From Rothia mucilaginosa (lineage in GTDB: Bacteria; Actinomycetota; Actinomycetes; Actinomycetales; Micrococcaceae), in the NCBI RefSeq assembly GCF_001548235.1, contig NZ_AP014938.1, positions 2,170,001-2,234,000 of the forward strand: DNA of 64,000 bases. Reading direction: 5' to 3'. The translations under genes and the position numbers were made by a program. Below the pieces are notes generated by a model. The model worked only from the letters and a program-made list of their open reading frames with translations. It was not told the DNA's origin and searched no databases. This document shows, piece by piece, positions 52,693-64,000 of the stretch (position 1 is its first letter; the number at the start of each line of letters is the position of its first letter).

Positions 52693-53675
52693 TCTCGCAC
52701 CTGCATAACACCACCGTTTCCGCCATCAACAAGGAACTGAGCCACCTGGCGGCAGCCAACGGTAGCCTCAGCAGCGGACGAGTACTCACCCTCGTGGTCC
52801 TCGCGGAAAAGGGCCACTCCCGCGAGGCCATGCGCGCGGCAATTCGTGCATCCCACGAGCACCCGAGCCGCGTCATCGTGCACATTTCGCATGACCCGCT
52901 CGACCCCGACCAGCTGGATGCAGAAATCCACCTCGGCGGTGATACCGGCGCGTCCGAGATGATTGTTCTGCGCGGCTGGGGTAGCGCATCCCGCCCGACT
53001 GAGGCGCTGATTTCCGGTCTACTACTGCCGGACTCGCCGATTGTGGTCTGGTGGCCGCACTCGGTTCCGGAGAACCCCGCGCAGCACTCCATCGGTCGTA
53101 TCGCTCAGCGTCGCATCACCGACTCTGCGCGCGCAGAAGACCCGAAGGAAGCTCTCAAGCACCTCGCCGAGGTGTACCGCGCCGGCGACACCGACCTGGC
53201 GTGGACCCGCCTCACCCTGTGGCGCACCCAGCTGGCTGCGCTCCTGGAGCAGGTGCCTTCCTCCCCCGTACGCCGCGTGGTTGTGTGGGGTTCGAGCAAG
53301 TCCCCGTCCGTGGTGCTGCTCGGTACCTGGCTCGGTTGGAAGCTCAACGCACCCGTGCACCTGGCGACCATCGGTGCGGCAAACCGCGGCCTGTACCGCG
53401 TCAGCATCGAGCGTGAAGACGGTTCCGTGACCATGTTCCGCCCCGGTATTTCCGTGGCGACCGTTTCCACCCCGTACGCGCCCGATCAGCAGATTGCGCT
53501 GCCGGTGCGTACCCTCGCCGAGTGCATCTCTGAGGAACTGCGCCGCCTCGACCCGGACGACACCTACGGTGACGTGCTGAAGCAGGCACTGCGCACCGTA
53601 ACCCTCGTCGATGACACCTGCCAGCCTGAAGACATGCTGGACCTCGAAGAATACCCGGAGGTTTTCGATGCCTAA
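52689..53675 (+). CDS. opcA: glucose-6-phosphate dehydrogenase assembly protein OpcA
   Basis: 328 residues from GTG 52689, which overlaps the zwf stop and has GGAGG upstream. OpcA is needed for assembly and redox control of Zwf in Actinobacteria and cyanobacteria. Typical pieces: TLVVLAEKGHSREAMRAAIRASHEHPSRVIVHI, GGDTGASEMIVLRGWG, LLLPDSPIVVWWPHSVPENPA, and SIEREDGSVTMFRPG. Its end overlaps pgl by 8 bp, so zwf, opcA and pgl are translationally coupled. Confidence 0.94.
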   Translation: MISHLHNTTVSAINKELSHLAAANGSLSSGRVLTLVVLAEKGHSREAMRAAIRASHEHPSRVIVHISHDPLDPDQLDAEIHLGGDTGASEMIVLRGWGSASRPTEALISGLLLPDSPIVVWWPHSVPENPAQHSIGRIAQRRITDSARAEDPKEALKHLAEVYRAGDTDLAWTRLTLWRTQLAALLEQVPSSPVRRVVVWGSSKSPSVVLLGTWLGWKLNAPVHLATIGAANRGLYRVSIEREDGSVTMFRPGISVATVSTPYAPDQQIALPVRTLAECISEELRRLDPDDTYGDVLKQALRTVTLVDDTCQPEDMLDLEEYPEVFDA

Positions 53676-54777
53676 GATTCAGAACATGGGCGCATCCACC
53701 CCCACCCTGGTGGCGCACCCGACCCGCGAGGCCCTCGCAGCGGACGCGGTGACCCGCATCCTCGACATCATTGAGCACGTGCTCTCTGAGCGCACGATTG
53801 CCCACATTTCGCTGACCGGCGGCACCATGGGTATCGCCACCTTGAAGGCGTGGGCTGAGAACGAGCGTGTGAAGGATATCGACTGGTCCCGCGTGCACTT
53901 CTGGTTCTCCGATGAGCGTTACGTGCCCGAACGTAGCCCCGAACGTAATGACGGTCAGGCTATTGAGGCACTGCTCGCTCCCCTGCTTTCGCACGGCCTG
54001 GTTGTGGGCAATGTGCACCGTATGGGCCCGTCCGATATTTTCACCGGTCTTGAGGCTGCCGCCGAGCACTACGCTTTCGAGATGCGCGACTACGCCGGTT
54101 CCGCACCGGCTGTGAGCGTGCAGATGCCCGAGGGCGCAACCGAACTGCCGCTGGCTGGCGGTCACGGTGGCGGCGCAGGTCACGAGCACGGCGGCTCCGG
54201 CGGCTGTGGTTGCGGTGGCGGCGGTTGCGGTGGCGGCGGTTGCGGTTCTTCCGCACCCGAGCAGTCCATCGAAGAGACTACCCTCGACGAATTTGACGCT
54301 GAGGCTGCTGAGCCCGCAGGTGGTTGCGGATGCGGCGGCGGAGGCTGCGGTGGTGGCGGTGGCGGCCAGTGGCCCGCACCGGTCTTTGACATCACCCTGC
54401 TGGGCATGGGCCCGGACGGTCACATTGCGTCCCTGTTCCCGGGCCGTAAGCAGGTTCTGCTGGGTACCGGTCTGCCGGAGGACCCGGTTGAGGGCGGTAA
54501 GGCTGTGACCGTGATGGTTTCTGATTCGCCGAAGCCACCGGCTGAGCGTGTGTCGGTGACCCTGCCGATTATCAACAATTCGCGTCACGTGTTCTTCCTC
54601 ATCACCGGTGAGGATAAGCAGGATGCGACCAGCCGCCTGCTGGCTGGCGCGAAGCTGGACGCTGAGGACCTGAATGCTGAGCTGCTGCTGGAAACCCCGG
54701 CGGTGGGTGCGCGCGGTAAGAAGCAGACCCTGATTTTTGCAACCGAGGAGTCGCTGGCTCCTGAGAACCGCCCGTAA
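53668..54777 (+). CDS. pgl: 6-phosphogluconolactonase with Gly/Cys/His-rich insert
   Basis: 369 residues against about 250 in the family. It hydrolyses the lactone made by Zwf. ATG 53668 lies inside the opcA end with GGAGG 5 nt upstream. Family motifs are intact on both sides: SLTGGTMGIATLKAW, HFWFSDERYVPERSPERN (81-95), then ITLLGMGPDGHIASLFPG (242-258). Residues 164-233 are an insert: GGHGGGAGHEHGG, two blocks of CGCGGGGCGGGG type with seven Cys in all, separated by an acidic linker (EETTLDEFDAEAAEPA). The DNA there is made of 15-bp GGC/TGC-rich units. It could bind metal or be an expanded linker; the enzyme is probably still active. Confidence 0.93.
   Translation: MPKIQNMGASTPTLVAHPTREALAADAVTRILDIIEHVLSERTIAHISLTGGTMGIATLKAWAENERVKDIDWSRVHFWFSDERYVPERSPERNDGQAIEALLAPLLSHGLVVGNVHRMGPSDIFTGLEAAAEHYAFEMRDYAGSAPAVSVQMPEGATELPLAGGHGGGAGHEHGGSGGCGCGGGGCGGGGCGSSAPEQSIEETTLDEFDAEAAEPAGGCGCGGGGCGGGGGGQWPAPVFDITLLGMGPDGHIASLFPGRKQVLLGTGLPEDPVEGGKAVTVMVSDSPKPPAERVSVTLPIINNSRHVFFLITGEDKQDATSRLLAGAKLDAEDLNAELLLETPAVGARGKKQTLIFATEESLAPENRP
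54157..54366 (+). repeat. coding microsatellite-like insert in pgl
   Basis: In-frame GGC/GGT/TGC-rich repeat tracts encode residues 164-233 of Pgl. Two blocks (about 54205-54250 and 54322-54366) share TGCGGTGGCGGCGGT-like 15-bp units. Confidence 0.85.
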
Positions 54778-54815
54778 GGTTCCGGTTCTGGCGCGGTTCT
54801 GAACTGCATCAAGAT

Positions 54816-54863
54816 AAAGAGTGGAGCCCCGGATTGTTTCGACTATCCGGGGCTCCACTCTTT
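54816..54863. terminator. bidirectional terminator between pgl and the TerD-like gene
   Basis: A perfect 19-bp stem with AAAGAG/CTCTTT ends and a 10-nt loop. It serves the convergent transcripts that end at 54777 (plus) and 54875 (minus). Confidence 0.92.
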
Positions 54864-54874
54864 ACTACGCCCGC

Positions 54875-57505
54875 CTACTTTTCAGCAGCGGCAGGATTCT
54901 GCGACTGCTGTTCCTGGGGCTCCTCCGCTTCATCCTCGAAGCCCACGTACAGTGCCGCCAGCGACGGAACCGTCGCCTCCAGCACCTCCTGCGCCTCCTC
55001 GGGGCTCGGGGCGAGCTTCGCGCCGGTCAGCTGCAGGTACTCGCGCACCGTCATGGGCTGCGCCCAATCGAAGTGCTCACGCACGGCAGTAATGTTCGCG
55101 CCGGACTGCAGCACGTTAATGCCGCGGGCAAGACCGATATCCGTCACCTTCACGATGGCATCGGTCTCCTCCGGGATGTCGTACGGGTCGCGGTTCTGCA
55201 GGTCCACAATGAACGGCAGCACGCCGCGGCTCTCAGCGCGCAGGGTGAACTTGGTGTGCACCTGGCTCACCTCGTGCACCTCGCCCACACCCACGGCGGG
55301 TACCACCATGAAGCCCGCCTGCAGGTCGTTCACCGCGTCCAGGGTGCGCGCCTCTCCGAAGCCGGAGTACAGCTGCACCACCGGCACGAGGTAGCACACC
55401 TCCGCCTTGAGCGCCTTGCGTGCCTCAATGTCGATGTACTCCCAGGCGCCGCCGGTACCGTCGGTAATGTCGCCAGAATGGTGCGCGTAAATGGCGCCCT
55501 GACTGTTCTTCGCGGTCTGCGACCAGTAGCTGATCTTGTCCATGTAGTTGCCTTCGGCGTCAAACATCATCAGCGACAGGTCAATGTCCACGCCCTCATC
55601 CCAGAAGCAGAAGAGGCGAATCACGCCGGTGGGCGACAGGTGCACCGTCGAGGTGTTGTAGCGGCCCATACCGTCCAGGGAGGGGCGGGCGCTGCGGGTG
55701 TTCAGCGGCATGATCGTATCGCCCACCTGCTCGGGCAGGTAGATGCTGGTCTCGGCAAGGCGACCGGACAGGCCGATCTCGACCAGGCGCTCCAGCAGGT
55801 CCAGCACCGCCGGGCTGTACTCGCGCGCCGGAATCATGGTGGCGATACCGGTTTTGGACAGGTTCATGCGCTGCGGGGCGGCAGGCTGAGCCTTCTGAGC
55901 GGAAGTCGCGGCACGCTGAGTGTTTCGCGGGCTCTCGGGGACAGAGGTGTGCGGGTTAGACAGGCCGGCGTTACGGTCAAAGAACGAGCCCAGCGGGTTC
56001 GGGATGCCCGCGTTCTGCATGAGGTTCTGAACCCTGGCGACGCCCTCCGCGTTGCGGCGCGCATAGTCGGCCATCTCCCGGTCCTCCTGCACCGCCACAG
56101 GGTTGGCGGGGCGTTCCTTCGGCGGGTTCGCGAGCGCGTTACGCTGCAGGGTCACCAGGTTGCGGATCTGCACCAGGATGGGCGCGGAAACGCGCGGCGC
56201 CACGGCGGCGAACGCGTCAAAGATGACCTGCTGGCCGGGGCTCGGGGCGGTGTCGATGCCGTAGCGGGGCGCTTCGAAAGCATCCAGGGCGCGCACCAGC
56301 TGGCGTGCGAACACGCCGGGGCGGGTCGAGAGCAGACGTGCCACGTTCTGCGCATCCCGAGTTGCGTAGGCGCGGTCCACCAGTGATTCGAAGCTGTACA
56401 CCTCGCCGCGGTACAGGTCGTCAGCCCAGCGGCTCAGCGCGGTCAGTGACGGGTAGTCGCCGGGGTGAACCGCCTTGACGAGGCGCTTGTACATTTCGGC
56501 GGCGGGTGCGCTGTCGTAGCGGGCACCGACCGGGTCAGCCTCCAGTACCCGGTTGAGCAGGTGCGCGATGCGGGTGCGTTCGCTACGGCGCAGCTTCAGG
56601 CGCGGCGCGATGCTCAGGCTCAGGTCCCCCACCGTGCCGTTGAAACGCAGACGCGAGTAGGCGGCGGCGAGGGCGAGCGCCTCCTTCATGGTGCGCAGGT
56701 GCTCAGCGTCTTCGGGGTGCAGGCAGGCGGCGATGAACACGCGGTTTTCGCGGCTGCTATTTTCCGGTCGGGCAGCCGGCAGCGCGTCATGCTGGGAGAG
56801 GAAACGGCGCAACGCCACAAGGTCGCGCTGGTCGGTCTGGTTGTACGCCTGCTGCTGACCGAGCAGCTGCTGGTAGAGGGCACCCGCCATGATCAGGGCG
56901 TTCTGCACGCCGCTGACCATCTGCAGGGGTCGGCGGTTGCGTTCCATGCTGGTGAAGTTGGAGCGACTCATCGGCTGCTGCCACTCGTAGGGCACGTAGT
57001 TCTCGGGCAGGCCGCCAAGGATACGCTCGGTGCCGTCCGGGTTGTAGTACGGGTTGGAGAGGTAGTGCATGATCTGCTCGGTGTAGCGCTGCTCGTCGGT
57101 GAGCGTCAGGGCGCGCAAATCAAAGTCGCGGCGGAACACGCGGCCGGGGCGGTACCCGTATTCGTAGGACCAGATGGTTGCGAACAGGGCGAATTCGTTG
57201 GCGCTGGCGTTCAGTGCCTGGGCGAGGGACTCAGGGCTGAGGGTCAGACCGCAATCGCTCAGGACGGATACTCGCCCCAGGTCGGTGTCGAATGCGCCGG
57301 AGTGGTGCAGCTCGTTAATGCTCGAGTAGTTCGAGCGGTAGTAGGGGCCGTCCAGGTCGGTGAAGACGTACACGCCGTAGCGGCGCATCAGGATGAGGCG
57401 CACGAGGGGGCTGAGGCCCTCGGGCGCTTCGCCGTGAAGGTAGGCGGACTCGTTGAGGTAGGGTGATTCCTGCAGGTAGGGGGATGCGTCGTAGGGAGTG
57501 GTCAC
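54875..57505 (-). CDS. large protein with C-terminal TerD-like domain
   Basis: 876 residues. GTG 57505 follows AAAGGA at 6 nt. Residues 8-23 are a six-residue repeat (SPYLQE, SPYLNE, SAYLHG). The middle (25-500) is mostly helical, with no catalytic motif I recognise. A Pro/Asn/Ser linker (500-545) precedes a C-terminal domain (about 620-775) that follows the TerD pattern: IRLFCFWDEGVDIDLSLMMFDAEGNYMDKISYW, then HHSGDITDGTGGAWEYIDIEARKALKAEVCYLVPVVQLYSG. It resembles the MXAN_6230/SCO0854 family as I remember it, but I see no RING cysteines. TerD domains bind calcium and occur in stress and conflict systems. It is last in the cluster, after a 447-bp gap. Confidence 0.7.
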   Translation of the reverse strand: MTTPYDASPYLQESPYLNESAYLHGEAPEGLSPLVRLILMRRYGVYVFTDLDGPYYRSNYSSINELHHSGAFDTDLGRVSVLSDCGLTLSPESLAQALNASANEFALFATIWSYEYGYRPGRVFRRDFDLRALTLTDEQRYTEQIMHYLSNPYYNPDGTERILGGLPENYVPYEWQQPMSRSNFTSMERNRRPLQMVSGVQNALIMAGALYQQLLGQQQAYNQTDQRDLVALRRFLSQHDALPAARPENSSRENRVFIAACLHPEDAEHLRTMKEALALAAAYSRLRFNGTVGDLSLSIAPRLKLRRSERTRIAHLLNRVLEADPVGARYDSAPAAEMYKRLVKAVHPGDYPSLTALSRWADDLYRGEVYSFESLVDRAYATRDAQNVARLLSTRPGVFARQLVRALDAFEAPRYGIDTAPSPGQQVIFDAFAAVAPRVSAPILVQIRNLVTLQRNALANPPKERPANPVAVQEDREMADYARRNAEGVARVQNLMQNAGIPNPLGSFFDRNAGLSNPHTSVPESPRNTQRAATSAQKAQPAAPQRMNLSKTGIATMIPAREYSPAVLDLLERLVEIGLSGRLAETSIYLPEQVGDTIMPLNTRSARPSLDGMGRYNTSTVHLSPTGVIRLFCFWDEGVDIDLSLMMFDAEGNYMDKISYWSQTAKNSQGAIYAHHSGDITDGTGGAWEYIDIEARKALKAEVCYLVPVVQLYSGFGEARTLDAVNDLQAGFMVVPAVGVGEVHEVSQVHTKFTLRAESRGVLPFIVDLQNRDPYDIPEETDAIVKVTDIGLARGINVLQSGANITAVREHFDWAQPMTVREYLQLTGAKLAPSPEEAQEVLEATVPSLAALYVGFEDEAEEPQEQQSQNPAAAEK

Positions 57506-57526
57506 GGGTCGTCCTTTCCGTTGGTC

Positions 57527-57817
57527 TCACCCGGCTGTCACCGTCGGTGGTGTGTTTATGTTCTTATCGTAGCGGTGTGGGTGCGGGTTGTCGCTGGGTT
57601 TGGTCATCGGTGACCTGCGGGGGCAACAGGCGGTTACGTAAGCGGAGCCTGGGCGGTGTTTATCCGTCGCCTGCTTATCCGCCGAGTGCTTGTCCATCAG
57701 CCGCTTATCTGTCAGCCGCGTGGGAACGGGGTTAAAAGAAAAATGGCGGGAAGCGAAGAATCCGACAAATATAAGAAAAAGATATTTCAGAAAGTAGGAC
57801 TCTTCATGATCCGCCAT
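57527..57817 (-). CDS. possible small membrane protein with pentapeptide repeat
   Basis: 96 residues. ATG 57817 is 7 nt after a TACTCT hexamer that has TTGACC 18 nt further upstream, so a leaderless message is possible. Residues 11-25 (KYLFLIFVGFFASRH) form a hydrophobic helix. Then come four units of five residues sharing Asp-Lys (TDKRL, MDKHS, ADKQA, TDKHR), encoded by 15-bp repeats kept in frame. The rest is Pro/Thr-rich. It ends 22 bp before the TerD-like gene on the same strand. The repeat and promoter argue for a gene, composition and lack of homology that I can name argue against. Confidence 0.35.
   Translation of the reverse strand: MADHEESYFLKYLFLIFVGFFASRHFSFNPVPTRLTDKRLMDKHSADKQATDKHRPGSAYVTACCPRRSPMTKPSDNPHPHRYDKNINTPPTVTAG
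57658..57717. repeat. four imperfect 15-bp tandem units
   Basis: Units GCTTATCCGCCGAGT-like at 57658, 57673, 57688 and 57703. The 15-bp length preserves reading frame in the minus-strand ORF 57527-57817. Confidence 0.75.
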
Positions 57818-57824
57818 TGCTTAT

Positions 57825-57854
57825 AGAGTACTCCCGCCCCGCGACGGTGGTCAA
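57825..57854 (-). promoter_or_regulatory. candidate promoter upstream of the small ORF and TerD-like gene
   Basis: On the minus strand TTGACC (57854-57849), 18-nt spacer, TACTCT (57830-57825). It would start transcription at about 57817, the ATG of the small ORF. Confidence 0.45.
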
Positions 57855-57894
57855 GCCGTTTCGTCACCGAAGCATGCTCGGGGGTTTTCCACCC

Positions 57895-57935
57895 GCCGGT
57901 GAGGCTCTAGCTAAGGGGCAAGTAGCATCACCGGC
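57895..57935. terminator. hairpin after the 969-residue gene
   Basis: GCCGGTGA/TCACCGGC stem with a long loop, 18 nt after the stop at 57953. The T6 tract is on the plus-strand side, so minus-strand termination is uncertain. Confidence 0.4.
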
Positions 57936-57952
57936 AGGTAGGTTTTTTCGGG

Positions 57953-60862
57953 TTAGGACTCCCCGAGCAGGGCGAGCGCGGCTTCGCGGGCGGCAAGCGC
58001 CTCCTCCGTCTTGCGGGCAGGCACAGCAGCCAGGGCACGCAGTGCCTTCGCCAGCACCGTGGAGCCCTTCATCTTCGGCTCCAGGACGGCGGGGATCTCA
58101 ACCGGCGTGCCGTACAGTTCGGCAAGCTCCACCGCCAAGCGCACATAGTCGCCGCCCTTCGTCAGCCCACCAACCATCGGCAGCAGCAGACGCAGAACCT
58201 GCAGTACACGCCAACCCGCCAGCGGACTAATAGCCGACACCTCACGCAGGGTCGCCACCAGGCGGGTCGGAAGAACCATCCCGTCCTCCAGCGCCCACTT
58301 CAGGGTCTCCGCGAAGGTTCCTGTATCCAGCAGGCCCGCCTCAAAGAGTGCCGCAATGGCTTCTGCCGCCGCCAGACGGTACTCGGGGTTCTTCGCGCTC
58401 GCCACGTAACCGAGCAGAGTGCAGGTCGGGGCGCCCACCTGCACGGTGGACTCCCTCAACGCACGCATGAGTACGGGAACGGGGGTGATGGTCTTCTCCT
58501 CAACGCACTGCGAAGCGGCAAACAGGAAGTATGCCGAGAGCAGGTCCGGGTTGTTCTGAAGCAGCCAGGACGCCCACTCGGTGAGCGCCGGGAGGAAGTC
58601 ACCCAGCCAGCTGTCAACTCTGTCGAGATTCAGCAGATACACGAAGGGAATAAATGCGGTGTTAAGAGCCTCGTAGGCGATGGCCTCCTCGGGGCTCATG
58701 CCAGCGGTTGCACGGCTCAGCGCCTCGCGAGCCTCATCCACGGTATCCGCGATGTCGCCCTTGACCTGCCACATGGGCTGGTACTTCACGAATTCCTCAA
58801 CGTTAAAGTTTTCGAAGCCTGCCTCGCGGAGACGACCCGACCTGCTGGCCTCCTGGTATTCCCAGACTCGATCATTGTCGAGACCGCGGTTGAAGCCGCT
58901 CCAGGGCATATCCATGCCAGAAACAGTGCGATAAGTCCAGTCACTGTAGGTCAGCTGGCGGGCGGGTAGTGGTGCGCTCAGCAGGCGCACCGTACGACCA
59001 TCCGTGTGGTACTCTCCCCCGGCAGCAACGGCACGCATCTGCTCGCGGAAAATCTCGTGGAGGTCACGGTAACCCTTCAACGGCTTGTAGTCAGCATTCC
59101 AGAGATGGTGTTTATTCTGAATAGTCAGACGTATCATCTCTTCCTTGCTCAGGAGCGCGTTACTCGGGCAGGCTCGTGCAACCATCTCACTACGGTCGGA
59201 ATACTGCAGGAGCGGCGTCAGCTCGGGTAGCTCCCACGATTCGTATCCCGCGGCCTCGGCGTTAGCTTCCAACACGGCGCACAGCGCAGGCATGTACGCG
59301 ACGTTGTTGTAGTAATATTCGCTGGCAATCTTACGCAGGGTACGAAGCTGCTGCTGATCCACCGGTGCAAGCTTGCCGGTCGCCGCAAAGTGGTAAAGAC
59401 GAGCCAGGTTCTCTCCCCGAGTGCTGGGAGATTCGTCCCCGGTAATTCGACCGGAGTTTGTGTTCGACTCCTCCGTAATGAGGGTGCAGAACTCACCCAA
59501 ATCCGCGATGGATGCGACGGATTCTCGGCACTCAACGCCGGGCAACAGCACCGGCGGCACCTCTACGGAGGCGCCCGCCGCCTCCGCCTCTTCCTGCTGG
59601 GGCAGGCGGTCTTCGGGCAGGCATGCTTCTGCGGCGCCGCGCAGTTCCAGGGGTAGCACCTCGTAGGCTTCGAGGACGCGCTCGGCAACGTAGTTGGCGA
59701 GCGCCACCTGCTCGGCGGTTTGCGTCTTCTTGCGCTTGGCTTTGCTCACGCCGGCGTACTGGGTGGCGATGAGCTTGAGCAGGCGCAGGGCGCCGCGCTG
59801 AATCTTCTTTTCGGTGCGGTAGAGGTTCGCGCCGAGTGCGTCGATGAGCTGTTCCAGGTCGAGCTGTTCGAGGGGTTGCAGGTCGGGGGTCTTCTGCAGG
59901 TTGGCGGGTGCGCAGGCTTTGAGGACGTTCTGCAGCATGGTCTGCGCGAATCCGACGGAGGCGCTGGGCTCTGCGGTGAGGACAGCCATGAGCTGCCCGA
60001 AGCGTGCCCGGTTTTCTGCGTCGGTGGGTTGCAGGTCGGCGTAGACGGAGTGGAACGCAGCCGAGTTGAATGCACTGAAATCGCTGGTCAGGCCGCGTAG
60101 CAGGGCGTCCAGAATCTCATCGCGAATGTCAAAGTATTCGCCCATGAGGCGGCAGAGTTCCGCGCTTTCACCCATGTGGTTGCCGTAGCCCTTGAAGAGC
60201 ACCCCCTCGGTGCGGAAGACCGCCCAGAATTCTTGGTCGAGCAGGGTCATATCGCGGGTGAAGAAGGTCTTGAGCTGGGCGTGGTTGCTGGTGCTTCCTT
60301 TCTTCACACAGGGCAGGGCCTCGTGCAGGAAAAGGACCAGGTATTCGGGGGCTTCGCAGCTCAGGTTGCGTGCGCGAAGTAGCGTGTAGCAGGTTTCCCA
60401 AATCTTCTTCGAGCGAGCCCAGGAGTTGGGTAGCCCCTCAATGAAACGCAGAATCCACTCGTCGGGTCGTTCGGTGGCGCCGAGCAGGAACGCGTCAATC
60501 AGCTGCTGATCCGGGCGCCCCTCCCAGAGCAGGGTGCGCATGGCGCGACCGGCGGAGCGGTGGTATTCCCACGGGTCGCCGTCGGGGGTGCGCACGAGCG
60601 CCCCGGCAACATAGGCGGCGAGCGGGGTGCGGTTAATGTGGTCGCTACCAATCACGTTCTTGGGGGTGAGGGTTCGGGCGAGGGAGGCGCGTTCCTCCTC
60701 GGTGGCGCCGGTGATGACGGCGTGGTACTCCTGCACGTCAGTTGATTCTGCCGCCATGAGGGCCTTGAGGGCGGCACGGCGCTCTTCGAGGGTGCGCTCC
60801 CCTGCGTTATGCTCGCTGGCGCTGCGCTCGTTAGGGTTGTGCGGCTGGGCGGTATCAGTCAT
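57953..60862 (-). CDS. DUF6493-like large helical-repeat protein (969 residues)
   Basis: 969 residues, mainly helical, no membrane segment, no signal peptide. The segment RDEILDALLRGLTSDFSAFNSAAFHSVYADLQPTDAENRARFGQLMAVL (about 247-295) matches the same segment of the upstream neighbour, so the two are paralogues. The C-terminal half (700-960) looks like HEAT-type helical repeats (AAAEAIAALFEAGLLDTGTFAETLKWAL). This pattern is that of DUF6493 proteins, which as I recall accompany SWIM zinc-finger proteins in Actinobacteria. No catalytic motif is seen. ATG 60862 has only a weak ribosome site. It begins 65 bp after the 923-residue gene. Confidence 0.75.
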   Translation of the reverse strand: MTDTAQPHNPNERSASEHNAGERTLEERRAALKALMAAESTDVQEYHAVITGATEEERASLARTLTPKNVIGSDHINRTPLAAYVAGALVRTPDGDPWEYHRSAGRAMRTLLWEGRPDQQLIDAFLLGATERPDEWILRFIEGLPNSWARSKKIWETCYTLLRARNLSCEAPEYLVLFLHEALPCVKKGSTSNHAQLKTFFTRDMTLLDQEFWAVFRTEGVLFKGYGNHMGESAELCRLMGEYFDIRDEILDALLRGLTSDFSAFNSAAFHSVYADLQPTDAENRARFGQLMAVLTAEPSASVGFAQTMLQNVLKACAPANLQKTPDLQPLEQLDLEQLIDALGANLYRTEKKIQRGALRLLKLIATQYAGVSKAKRKKTQTAEQVALANYVAERVLEAYEVLPLELRGAAEACLPEDRLPQQEEAEAAGASVEVPPVLLPGVECRESVASIADLGEFCTLITEESNTNSGRITGDESPSTRGENLARLYHFAATGKLAPVDQQQLRTLRKIASEYYYNNVAYMPALCAVLEANAEAAGYESWELPELTPLLQYSDRSEMVARACPSNALLSKEEMIRLTIQNKHHLWNADYKPLKGYRDLHEIFREQMRAVAAGGEYHTDGRTVRLLSAPLPARQLTYSDWTYRTVSGMDMPWSGFNRGLDNDRVWEYQEASRSGRLREAGFENFNVEEFVKYQPMWQVKGDIADTVDEAREALSRATAGMSPEEAIAYEALNTAFIPFVYLLNLDRVDSWLGDFLPALTEWASWLLQNNPDLLSAYFLFAASQCVEEKTITPVPVLMRALRESTVQVGAPTCTLLGYVASAKNPEYRLAAAEAIAALFEAGLLDTGTFAETLKWALEDGMVLPTRLVATLREVSAISPLAGWRVLQVLRLLLPMVGGLTKGGDYVRLAVELAELYGTPVEIPAVLEPKMKGSTVLAKALRALAAVPARKTEEALAAREAALALLGES

Positions 60863-60927
60863 TGGTACCTGCTTTCAGAGTTGATGGTGAATGGTTGTGA
60901 AGAGTTGAACGGGTGCGGGCGGGGCGG

Positions 60928-63699
60928 TTAGCCCTGCACCTGCTTGAGGATATTCCGGGCGTACCGCGCCTTCTGCGAAGAACCGGTCAGCGTACCCAAC
61001 CAGGCACGCAGCGGCTCATCCACGAGCTGCGCACGGGTGGCAGGGTCGATAGTCGCCAACGCCTGGCTGAAAGCGCCCAGCAGCTTACCGAGCGAGTTCG
61101 CCCCGGTATCCAGGTGCGGTATGAGGCGCGCGAAGAAGCGCACCGCCGCCCGCGCATCCAGCTGGGCGAAGTCGGTGAGGGCGAGCGCCCAACGGTTCAG
61201 CATTGCCAGCGGCACAAAGTTCACGAACCCTGCGGTGGCATCCTCAAGGCTGAGCTGATCGTCCAGCACGCGGTGCATAATTTCCACGGCGAGGGAACGA
61301 ATTTCGACGCGTTGCTCCGAGAAGCCCGCGGCAAACACGAACGCGCAGGCGGGACCCCACGCGCCGGGGTGCGCCGCCAACGCCAAATACAGGCTCCGGT
61401 CAAAGGCGCTGTGGTCCAAGCTGTACCAGTTGCTGCTAGCGCAGTAGAAAGCCAGCGGTTCTGCCCGCGAGGGGTAGAGCAGGGCGTACTGTCCTTCTTC
61501 GTCGTGGTGGGCGGTGGCGAGTCCGCGGAAAGCGTTCAGCTCGGGGGTGGAAGCACCGTGCGCCACCCCGTTCAGCTGAAGGCCCCAGCTTTTTTCCCGC
61601 TGGGCTACCGTGATGGATTCCAGGTAGGGGTTGACGCGCCCGGTGGCGAGGGTGCCGTCGAGGGCGGAGCGGAGCACACGAATCTGGGTAGGAGCAGAGC
61701 GCGGGGCGTCCTCCTGAGCGTTCTTCACGTATTGCTCTTCGAGGCTTTCAAGCAGGGTCAGCGCCTCAGCTCGGCGGCTCTGTGCATCCTGTCGCTGCTC
61801 GTCGGTAGCGTACGGAGGCAGCACCTCCGGCACGCGCACACGCAGTAGCGCCGCCGTGAAATCCTGACGTAGGATGGGGGCTCCATCAGCCAGGTTCTTG
61901 GCGTACCGGCGCACCAGGGTATCCGGATGTACCCACCCGCCGAACAGCTCAGGGGTGGCGAGCGGCGTGTAGCTCTGCCTGCTCTGCAGCACGCCGAGGG
62001 CGTCCTTGAATCCGGTGCTGAAGAACGTGGCGTGGCGGGAGTACATGGTGTGCAGGTTCGGCACCGTACCGGGGTCTTCCTTCGGGGTCATCTCCGACGC
62101 CTTCGGGCGCTCACGCAGCTTCCCGGCGGCGGCAAGAACCGTCAAGTGCGCGCGCATGTCGAACCATGTCAAACCCCAGTGGTTCAGCTTTTTCAGGCAG
62201 ATAGGAACCAGCTGTTCGAGCAGGTTCGGGCTTTGCGCGGTGCCGTCGGCGCTGAGCAGGTAGGCGGTGAGCAGTTCCAGTTCCAGCTCGCATCCGGCGT
62301 GCGTTTCGGGAAGTTCCGCTTCATTGAGCGTATCGGGGGTAGTGCTGGGCGCGACCTGATGGTGCAGGAGCGCACGGGCGCGTTCTTGCACGTCAGATGC
62401 GGTAACGGGGCGCACGGGGGTGTCCCAGTACCGGTGGATTACGGCGCGGGAGGCGGCGAGCGCCTCCGCGGCGGCGGCCTCAATGTCAGCAGCTTCAGTG
62501 AGGGCGGCGCTGTCCTCGCCGCTCCCCCGGCTATTCTCCGGGCTGTACCCATCTTCGAGGAGCGGCGAGCCCTTTTCCTGAATCTGTGCCACAACCAGCG
62601 GATCGAGCTGGGATCGGTAGTCGCAGTAGAGTTCGCGGGCGCGCTCGGCGAACACGATAGTCTCGGCGCTCGCATCGTCTGCGGCACCCGCCTGAACCCA
62701 TTCTTCGAGGTGTTTGAGGGCGGCGGCCTGCACCTGCGCGTGGGTGTGGCTGAGCGCCATGACTACAGCGTCTTCGCAGGCGGCAGCGTCGAGGGTGCCC
62801 GCCCGGTAAAGCGCCTGGAGCATGGTCAGGATTTTGAGTGCGTTTGCTTTGGTTCCGGCGCATACGGCGGGTGCCGCGTAGGCAAAGGCGGTGGCATCCA
62901 GCGCCTGCGGGTTTTTGCTCCAGAGGCGGTGAATATGCTGCACGCCGAGGGCCACGCTCGGGCCGATAGGCGAGGAGAACAGCGTCAGAAATTCGCTCTG
63001 ACGTACCGCGATTTCTTCGGCGGTGAGTTTGAGTCCGGTGACCAGGCGTGAGAACCAGCCGACCCGGTACGCCGGGAAGTCGCTCATGAGGGAGCTCAGG
63101 AGCGCGTCAATGAGGCGGTCGCGGCTGATCAGCCGGGTTTCGGTGGCTTCGATGAGGGCACAGGACCAGCCGGGGTTGTTGTCCTTCTGTCCAGGCTTGT
63201 AGGAGTCGCGCTGGGTGAGGGATACGTCCCGGGTACCTTCGACGGCGAGCATGCCCCAGATGAGTTCTTCGCGGAGCTGTTCGTCCTCGCGCAGCAGCGG
63301 GAGGATCAGCTCACGGTCGCAGTTGATGAGGGCAGTGTAGTATTCCTCGTTGTGTTCGAGGCACGCCCCACCGTAGAGCTCAGCTAGGCGCATGGCAACG
63401 CCTCCGGTGAACCAGCCGAACTCTGCGTAGGCTTTGACGCGGTCCTGCGTGACGGTTCCGGGCGTGTTTTTACCGAGCTGGGAGCCGTATGGGGTGGTGA
63501 CAATGTCGAAGTACTGCCAGCGGCGGTAAATCTGTTCGAAGGTACCGCCGACCGCCAGGATGTTGGCGAGATTGCGGTTGAAGTGCATGATGTCGCTCCA
63601 GGTTTTTTGCTGCCTAGTGAGCGGGTAAATGACTTCGCCGGGGAGTGGCTCGGTGATGACACCTTCGGGGAAGGTGTGTGTTTCGGGGCGTTTGCGCAT
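60928..63699 (-). CDS. DUF6493-like large helical-repeat protein (923 residues)
   Basis: 923 residues, soluble and helical. The segment RDRLIDALLSSLMSDFPAYRVGWFSRLVTGLKLTAEEIAVRQSEFLTLFSSPIGPSVA (about 193-250) is the family core and aligns with residues 247-302 of the next gene. HEAT-like repeats follow (KANALKILTMLQALYRAGTLDAAACEDAVVMALSHTHAQVQAAALKHLEEWV). The C-terminal third has EGQYALLYPSRAEPLAFYCASSNWYSLDHSAFDRSLYLALAAHPG. ATG 63699 follows GAAAG. It starts 82 bp after the SWIM gene on the same strand. The function is unknown; a scaffold or partner of the SWIM protein is a reasonable guess. Confidence 0.75.
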   Translation of the reverse strand: MRKRPETHTFPEGVITEPLPGEVIYPLTRQQKTWSDIMHFNRNLANILAVGGTFEQIYRRWQYFDIVTTPYGSQLGKNTPGTVTQDRVKAYAEFGWFTGGVAMRLAELYGGACLEHNEEYYTALINCDRELILPLLREDEQLREELIWGMLAVEGTRDVSLTQRDSYKPGQKDNNPGWSCALIEATETRLISRDRLIDALLSSLMSDFPAYRVGWFSRLVTGLKLTAEEIAVRQSEFLTLFSSPIGPSVALGVQHIHRLWSKNPQALDATAFAYAAPAVCAGTKANALKILTMLQALYRAGTLDAAACEDAVVMALSHTHAQVQAAALKHLEEWVQAGAADDASAETIVFAERARELYCDYRSQLDPLVVAQIQEKGSPLLEDGYSPENSRGSGEDSAALTEAADIEAAAAEALAASRAVIHRYWDTPVRPVTASDVQERARALLHHQVAPSTTPDTLNEAELPETHAGCELELELLTAYLLSADGTAQSPNLLEQLVPICLKKLNHWGLTWFDMRAHLTVLAAAGKLRERPKASEMTPKEDPGTVPNLHTMYSRHATFFSTGFKDALGVLQSRQSYTPLATPELFGGWVHPDTLVRRYAKNLADGAPILRQDFTAALLRVRVPEVLPPYATDEQRQDAQSRRAEALTLLESLEEQYVKNAQEDAPRSAPTQIRVLRSALDGTLATGRVNPYLESITVAQREKSWGLQLNGVAHGASTPELNAFRGLATAHHDEEGQYALLYPSRAEPLAFYCASSNWYSLDHSAFDRSLYLALAAHPGAWGPACAFVFAAGFSEQRVEIRSLAVEIMHRVLDDQLSLEDATAGFVNFVPLAMLNRWALALTDFAQLDARAAVRFFARLIPHLDTGANSLGKLLGAFSQALATIDPATRAQLVDEPLRAWLGTLTGSSQKARYARNILKQVQG

Positions 63700-63781
63700 G
63701 GTGGTCTTTCGGTAGGAAGCTGAGGCGAGCTTTTGGGGCGTCGTCTTTTAGTGCGGTGCGTGATGTGTCGGGGTGTTTACC

Positions 63782-64000
63782 CTAGCCGGCGGCGTGTTCG
63801 CGGTAAAGAATACTGACCGCCAGGGCGTGCTTGCAGGGGCCGCGCGTACCGCGGTACTTCAACCACCAGGGGCAGGAGCAGAGGTACCCCTCCACGGCGT
63901 ACGGGTTGGCGGGTAGCACCACGGTGTACATGTTCGCGCCGCTGCGCACACTGTACTCACCGGTGCCGTGCTCCCCCGCCCCGACTCGCTCAATGGCTCC
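63782..64000 (-). CDS. SWIM zinc-finger protein, C-terminal part
   Basis: The frame enters from the right edge and stops at TAG 63784-63782, so only the last 72 residues are visible and the start lies beyond the window. It ends with a SWIM motif: C-S-C-P-W-W at residues 41-46 of the visible part, then R-G-P-C-K-H-A-L at 53-60. This gives the CxC...CxH zinc ligands, followed by a short helix. The preceding stretch (GEYSVRSGANMYTVVLPANPYAVEGYLC) is the usual run-in. SWIM domains bind DNA or proteins. It is first in the visible operon ahead of the two DUF6493-like genes. Confidence 0.9.
   Translation of the reverse strand, partial: GAIERVGAGEHGTGEYSVRSGANMYTVVLPANPYAVEGYLCSCPWWLKYRGTRGPCKHALAVSILYREHAAG

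Follow-up and report, generated by a model that had tools for sequence, protein, structure and literature searches.

The SWIM zinc finger family protein and the DUF6493 family protein are already named in the NCBI annotation, where they occur as a pair on plasmids of Diaphorobacter and Asticcacaulis, and no function or system name was found for either in the literature searched. The closest described class is the anti-phage retron type XIII, to which the founding paper of the retron classification reportedly assigned SWIM and WGR proteins. In the PADLOC tool, whose results supply the labels WGR_XIII, SWIM_XIII and RT_XIII used here, this type combines a WGR_XIII or HEAT-ARM_XIII protein with SWIM_XIII and a reverse transcriptase (RT), and it appears in the PADLOC listing of the antiphage defences of a Variovorax (PMC11953036). 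A literature search on DUF6493 found none, and one on retrons with SWIM or type XIII gave nothing relevant among the matches listed; the passages searched in PMC12548924 and PMC8867640 mention neither SWIM nor XIII, and those in PMC7159879 do not mention SWIM. A SWIM finger protein encoded in an operon with large uncharacterised proteins is also found in E. coli (yehLMPQ, specifying MoxR, YehM, VWA and SWIM proteins, together with the DUF4132 protein YehI). The stretch analysed here comprises 64,000 nt of Rothia mucilaginosa (the window; bases 2170001–2234000 of a complete single-contig genome of 2,292,716 bp), and its right end carries a SWIM gene, two DUF6493 genes and a TerD-like gene. The SWIM and DUF6493 genes correspond to the annotated NCBI pair and, from protein comparisons, are read as a putative sibling, lacking the RT, of the protein module found in retron XIII. 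That they form a two-component core, in which SWIM shares descent with the SWIM of retron type XIII and the DUF6493 solenoids act as sensors, has in our judgement about an even chance of being correct.

The PADLOC SWIM_XIII model matches residues 114–496 of the window SWIM (E = 1.4e-45). A remote relative was traced in a plasmid record of Methylobacterium bullatum, where it lies between a 1080-amino acid (aa) gene and an RT gene (RVT_1 match, E = 4.4e-23). The PADLOC scores of this locus (WGR_XIII 1.5e-251, SWIM_XIII 4.8e-213, RT_XIII 6.6e-176) identify a complete retron XIII unit, the 1080-aa solenoid gene and the SWIM gene of which overlap by 4 bases (ATGA). For comparison, 53 SWIM loci were collected by scanning GTDB contigs with the window SWIM; they are the closest relatives with a short peptide in common and not a census. 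A profile of the DUF6493-linked SWIM proteins aligned to the Methylobacterium retron SWIM over 365 columns (hhalign probability 99.7, E = 2.1e-26), and the latter, used as a query, recovered SWIM from all loci but L053 and the truncated L057 (51 of 53; E = 1e-24 to 4e-7). The homology extends over the N-terminal region, the winged-helix region and the finger. The N-terminal region is conserved, yet has no convincing Pfam match, and the finger was present in all 16 members scanned by Pfam. A winged helix is probable, as DprA_WH matched this region in 6 of the 16 (best E = 3.2e-4) and one or two members had matches to other helix-turn-helix families (best E = 5.7e-5, a single member). Sequence searches of the PDB with SWIM returned a best E of 0.17.

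In both systems a large gene of the solenoid type is coupled to the SWIM gene by a 4-base overlap. They differ in that the Rothia-type unit has no linked RT in the loci examined, in that its solenoid is DUF6493, and in that its solenoid genes are duplicated or arrayed. There were no RVT_1 matches in the complete window genome, in a search that matched 3 of 14 control genomes, and none of the flanks of the 53 loci contained an RT detectable with the Methylobacterium RT as the one query (E ≤ 1); in a positive control, this query found four of four strong retron-type RTs (E = 3e-40 or better) and two of five weak ones. The Methylobacterium WGR protein likewise had no match in the 53 loci. RT_XIII was searched for in 37 SWIM genomes (the window genome and 36 of the 53 locus genomes, that of L059 left out), 31 of which gave no match. 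As regards a possible msr-msd RNA, positions 54000–64000 of the window showed no Rfam match at gathering scores. As a SWIM_XIII relative without an RT, the unit does not itself belong to the retron type XIII family.

The SWIM and DUF6493 genes are a conserved unit. BLAST clustering found two groups of partner genes, common to 33 and 15 of 54 loci (the window's own included), and with hidden Markov models (HMMs) built from the partner genes DUF6493 was found to adjoin SWIM in 51 of the 53 loci, a few of them holding only fragments (L020, L035, L040 and L062, for example). The two loci without it are L047, where SWIM lies at a contig edge, and L057 of Rothia sp. RSM386. This count is partly circular because many of these loci also supplied the seeds of the HMMs; in a check independent of them, all six partners tested had a Pfam DUF6493 match (E = 8e-19 to 4e-4), five of them above the cut-off. 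With start codons placed by script, the SWIM stop and the DUF6493 start overlap by 4 bases in 25 of the 53 loci (19 ATGA, 5 GTGA and 1 TTGA). The NCBI annotation of the Diaphorobacter plasmid gives integrase-SWIM-DUF6493-DUF6493 with the same order and overlap, and that of the Asticcacaulis plasmid gives SWIM and one DUF6493; no DUF6493 neighbour is annotated for a Streptomyces plasmid SWIM (36% identical).

The unit is patchily distributed, common to several phyla and inserted at variable places. The 53 loci are mostly from Actinomycetota and Betaproteobacteria, with a Gemmatimonadetes metagenome-assembled genome and others, and Rothia SWIM is 60–61% identical to that of Achromobacter. SWIM was found in 6 of 149 genomes of the window's family and, among the matches listed, as a long match in 94 of 266 genomes of the genus of G301, presumably Streptomyces. 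Of the flanking proteins, 233 were picked and 123 scanned, and no Pfam family recurred in more than two of those scanned. The gene set looks mobile. In another genus of the family (g10), two loci carry a SWIM about 40% identical to the window SWIM: the DUF6493 partner in L110 is very diverged (alpha-type HMM, E = 3e-5), and L109 has none by HMM and one weak tblastn match.

The four same-strand genes that the initial annotation had described are confirmed; they lie on the minus strand in the order SWIM, DUF6493-A, DUF6493-B and TerD-like:

63782..64000, minus strand: C-terminal part of the SWIM gene (complete gene L002:3782-5284:-, 500 aa), a SWIM_XIII homologue with a conserved N-terminal region, a probable winged helix and a SWIM CxC...CxH finger
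60928..63699, minus strand: DUF6493-A, 923 aa, alpha-solenoid of the 'beta' paralogue type
57953..60862, minus strand: DUF6493-B, 969 aa, of the 'alpha' paralogue type
57732..57820, minus strand: conserved hairpin element between DUF6493-B and the TerD-like gene
54875..57505, minus strand: TerD-like protein, 876 aa, the N-terminal two thirds mostly helical, with a TerD-fold domain at residues ~616-805

The SWIM stop codon and the start of DUF6493-A are 82 bases apart, 65 bases separate the two DUF6493 genes, and about 450 bases, which hold the hairpin element, separate DUF6493-B from the TerD-like gene. One flank consists of tpiA, a 154-aa open reading frame (ORF) and a secG-like gene, and the other of pgl-opcA-zwf-tal; TIM (tpiA) is a Pfam result, and secG, pgl, opcA, zwf and tal were named by reading the proteins. 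By SWIM, the nearest named genome is that of R. mucilaginosa 141_RMUC (98% identical).

Among 35 Rothia genomes, 34 had the tpiA anchor, and 20 secG-pgl junctions were examined. In 14 of the 20 the site is empty, the secG-like gene adjoining pgl with no cluster gene between them. Two genomes (G101 and G159) show the arrangement of the window. At the junction of G153, SWIM is accompanied by three alpha DUF6493 genes, all intact (884, 888 and 891 aa), and there is no TerD-like gene; in R. aeria (G149) SWIM is followed by nine alpha copies in a row, the TerD-like gene and pgl. In oral Rothia, arrays of 2, 3 or 9 DUF6493 copies are found at one insertion site, the expanded type being that of DUF6493-B. 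The G153 copies are 38–40% identical overall and 66–86% identical in the last ~100 columns; such conserved ends with a variable middle are as expected of sensors, and the conserved C-terminal third may be a docking end in general. Gene conversion of the C-termini was considered and is not claimed: third-position identity at unchanged residues is 57–67% in the best-conserved segment of the alignment, not near-identity, and 13–71% in the other segments. At the junction of G173 there is instead a 298-aa ORF unrelated to the cluster (L067:14822-15718:+) with a DUF3800-like match just below the cut-off (E = 0.0011; 20.1 bits, cut-off 21), which suggests a variable insertion site. In Rothia sp. RSM386 (G002) SWIM is truncated, both DUF6493 genes are gone and the TerD-like gene is retained; the contig ends before pgl. 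In the R. aeria record (L068, L083), SWIM and most of the nine DUF6493 genes are broken by frame changes, and the matches to the neighbouring tal, zwf and pgl are also split. These breaks are probably sequence errors; the protein database contains unbroken proteins of 879 aa with 91% identity to G153 copy 2.

DUF6493-A matches Pfam DUF6493 (PF20103) with 45 bits (gathering cut-off 25), and DUF6493-B, with 17.2 bits, falls below the cut-off and was placed by tree and by an HMM built for this analysis. A tree of 55 DUF6493 proteins, built by a quick method and with DUF6493-A on a long end branch, splits into two clades, alpha and beta, which appear from it to be old paralogue types, one or both being present per locus. 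The order is SWIM, alpha, beta in Achromobacter (three loci), Nocardioides (L022) and Buchananella, and is reversed in R. mucilaginosa, where DUF6493-A is beta and DUF6493-B alpha. Loci with a single type are common. In L024 and L026 (Propionibacteriaceae) SWIM is followed by two partner genes that are both beta; solenoid genes were therefore duplicated in tandem outside Rothia too. DUF6493-A is predicted with good confidence to be an all-helical chain. DUF6493 had no PDB match by sequence at E ≤ 1, and the whole-chain structural matches (karyopherins, FANCI, CAND1, catenin) were taken as generic HEAT/ARM resemblance only.

Rates of nonsynonymous (dN) and synonymous (dS) change were compared between the window and G159 and G101, and between RSM386 and the window. 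The solenoids change faster than SWIM, yet are under constraint: dN/dS is 0.05–0.06 for SWIM (dN 0.006–0.008), 0.18–0.22 for DUF6493-A and 0.14–0.22 for DUF6493-B (dN of both 0.036–0.067), with 0.20–0.21 for the TerD-like gene and 0.06–0.14 for zwf. The values for RSM386 were 0.41 for the SWIM remnant (176 codons) and 0.17 for the TerD-like gene, which thus seems to remain functional in the absence of the other genes.

A mechanism can be proposed in which SWIM, with its probable winged helix and its zinc finger, would bind nucleic acid as an effector or adaptor and would be kept inactive by forming a complex with the solenoid. The sensors would be the solenoids, docking via the conserved end, and their variable middle would recognise a phage or stress product; recognition would free SWIM and thereby stop growth of the infected cell. 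That solenoids sense and that SWIM arrests growth are ideas drawn from the analogy with retrons and from the arrays; an anti-phage role is likewise inferred. In retron XIII the complex of RT and multicopy single-stranded DNA (msDNA) would be the sensor, a role that multiplied solenoids would take over in the RT-less unit. The TerD-like protein is envisaged as a stress protein under separate regulation, with the insertion site in common. A more specific version, in which one SWIM effector serves a copy-variable array of diversifying alpha-solenoid receptors (2, 3 or 9 genes), each docking by its conserved end and sensing a different trigger by its variable middle, as an RT-less receptor-array form of retron XIII immunity, is put forward only tentatively and is rather doubtful. 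Two named but unexplained families that are paired in several phyla are now tied to an anti-phage retron class, and the protein portion of a retron may be able to exist without its RT. If so, the role of RT-msDNA in type XIII could be studied by comparing both forms, and the Rothia arrays would be a bacterial case, in the human mouth flora, of one effector with many related sensors.

Several results weigh against this reading. The winged-helix matches are weak (best E = 5.7e-5, in a single member), and the retron XIII comparison locus is one plasmid record only. Six of the 37 SWIM genomes have an RT_XIII match outside the flanks searched, three of them strong. DUF6493-A and -B matched no PADLOC retron model at E ≤ 1, nor did eight other DUF6493 proteins at E ≤ 10 or four further ones at E ≤ 0.1, where one weak GajB match (0.0056) was seen; homology to WGR_XIII was not detected either (hhalign probability 0.9, single-sequence template). 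Since DUF6493 is not demonstrably homologous to WGR_XIII or HEAT-ARM_XIII, only SWIM links the two systems. Alpha proteins of other genera are likewise better conserved in their C-terminal third, so that the pattern seen in the arrays may be ordinary constraint. The dN/dS values of DUF6493-A and -B are those of purifying selection, with no positive selection at this resolution. A scan of IMG/VR with SWIM returned 16 pattern matches, none a relative, and a PADLOC scan of the 123 flanking proteins had no matched control and is not used as defence-island evidence. No experiment on the unit was found in the literature searched.

The TerD-like gene is a Rothia-specific neighbour, accessory and outside the conserved core. 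Its product was expected in the initial annotation to have a TerD-like C-terminus, and residues ~616–805 do model as the TerD fold (PDB 3ibz, 2kxt), with conservation of the acidic motifs D-x-D-L-S and H-S-G-D as the one feature seen that bears on calcium binding. The domain differs from those structures in being only 18% identical, in being fused to about 600 extra residues and in escaping Pfam TerD (no match at E up to 1); in a profile search of the PDB by sequence, 2kxt was returned with E = 0.03. The protein shares its architecture, a helical region plus a TerD domain, with the MXAN_6230/SCO0854 RING family and with RING-less TerD-family proteins, its own family taking in both RING-bearing SCO0854-type and RING-less members. 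It differs from the RING type in scoring 130 bits against a cut-off of 600 for that family model and in having no Pfam match to a RING domain. A literature search on SCO0854/DUF7825 found nothing relevant. In a sample of 346 genomes from the phylum, SWIM_XIII accompanied the long TerD-like match in all six that had one, and was found alone in four more. An obligatory partnership was rejected on the larger sample of 266 genomes from the genus of G301, where enrichment was moderate for one type (RING-less, SWIM in 39 of 75 versus 55 of 191, p = 5.7e-4, uncorrected for kinship) and absent for the other (RING, 16 of 39 versus 78 of 227, p = 0.47). These figures are hand counts of long matches, among the matches listed (113 of 188 TerD-profile and 94 of 160 SWIM-profile genomes), leaving out short matches to the TerD domain or helix-turn-helix region and a few fragments.

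The hairpin before the TerD-like gene is AT-rich and near-invariant within the R. mucilaginosa group. Its copies lie at:

L065:12111-12199:+
L064:8827-8915:-
L063:11081-11168:+
L083:11574-11658:+

Between R. mucilaginosa and R. aeria it covaries, 6 of 17 pairs being changed on both sides (each in one sequence), and the internal loops (GGATCAT/GCTTNCC) are conserved. There was no Rfam match at gathering scores. A possible small membrane ORF had been noted in this cluster; the ORF taken as the one meant finds no support, and the hairpin overlaps its start. A tRNA-like stretch between the array and the TerD-like gene in R. aeria was discarded, as ARAGORN found no tRNA in the six stretches scanned. 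A weak match to the hairpin model lies directly 3' of the G301 TerD-like gene (L102:8331-8413, E = 0.015 in 1.67 Mb).

The proposal of the initial annotation that the cluster encodes one multi-protein complex, to be judged by whether its neighbours are conserved together, is supported in so far as SWIM and DUF6493 form one conserved unit and is not supported for the TerD-like protein. A complex of all four gene products is quite unlikely: five TerD-like loci outside Rothia (L102-L106) have no SWIM or DUF6493 nearby, the gene is missing from the G153 junction, the spacer with its hairpin sets it apart from DUF6493-B, and it is not counted as core because purifying selection on it persisted where the other genes had been lost. 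Its position behind the array in both R. mucilaginosa and R. aeria, and the enrichment of SWIM with the RING-less type, are the points in favour, but this neighbour should not count as part of the SWIM–DUF6493 system. A MoxR or VWA gene had also been expected beyond position 64000, or else a reduced version of such a system. In E. coli, SWIM proteins and a DUF4132 gene do adjoin genes for MoxR and VWA, and this locus does encode a TerD fold; even so, a reduced, yehLMPQ-like nucleoside triphosphate-dependent conflict or stress complex of MoxR, VWA and SWIM, with TerD as a member, is very unlikely. The complete genome has no match to the MoxR domain AAA_3 (PF07726), in a search that matches 13 of the 14 genomes used as controls. 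In the 19 kb from window position 60001 on (L002), 10 of the 26 ORFs of at least 120 aa were scanned with Pfam, SWIM included, and none is MoxR or VWA, no genome-wide search for VWA having been made; those from the window end on include TIM, GAPDH, DegV and leucyl-tRNA synthetase. The E. coli operon differs in its MoxR and VWA partners; YehQ aligns to the window SWIM over the finger only (probability 1.7), and DUF6493 gave probabilities of 0.1 with YehM and 0.2 with YehI (the latter two with single-sequence templates and hence weak tests).

The pair could instead be a housekeeping or stress-regulation module, for example a DNA/RNA-binding regulator with a scaffold, that has no part in phage defence and whose arrays reflect dosage or drift. 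Most loci are chromosomal, no relative was found in IMG/VR, selection is purifying and no neighbour family recurs, all of which would fit. Against it stand the patchiness described above (6 of 149 family genomes, 94 of 266 in the genus of G301 among the matches listed), presence and absence at one site within Rothia, spread between phyla and an anti-phage retron as the closest described class; this explanation is a possible one with the balance against it. A toxin–antitoxin-like arrangement, in which SWIM would be a toxin, DUF6493 its chaperone or antitoxin without dedicated sensing, and the extra copies would neutralise diverging toxins, is unlikely. The translational coupling, constant pairing and single SWIM with several partners agree with it, and RSM386 lost both DUF6493 genes together with the SWIM C-terminus, a single case that would fit with SWIM being harmful on its own. 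Most partners in the overlap listing are 705–973 aa, large for antitoxins, and the array copies diverge from each other despite a single SWIM.

Outside the cluster, the 6-phosphogluconolactonase-like pgl product (window 53611–54777, plus strand) carries a Gly/Cys-rich stretch that is seemingly missing in 14 other Rothia, where tblastn matches are split, mostly near residues 144–172 and 256. The start of the genome record (G000:C1:1-5000, L107) recurs 8,897 bases before its end (L108, G000:C1:2283000-2292716), the first 112 bases being identical before a difference. Both end regions also contain one identical stretch of 3,369 bases (L099 = L100). The duplicated ends look like an uncircularised terminal redundancy of the record.

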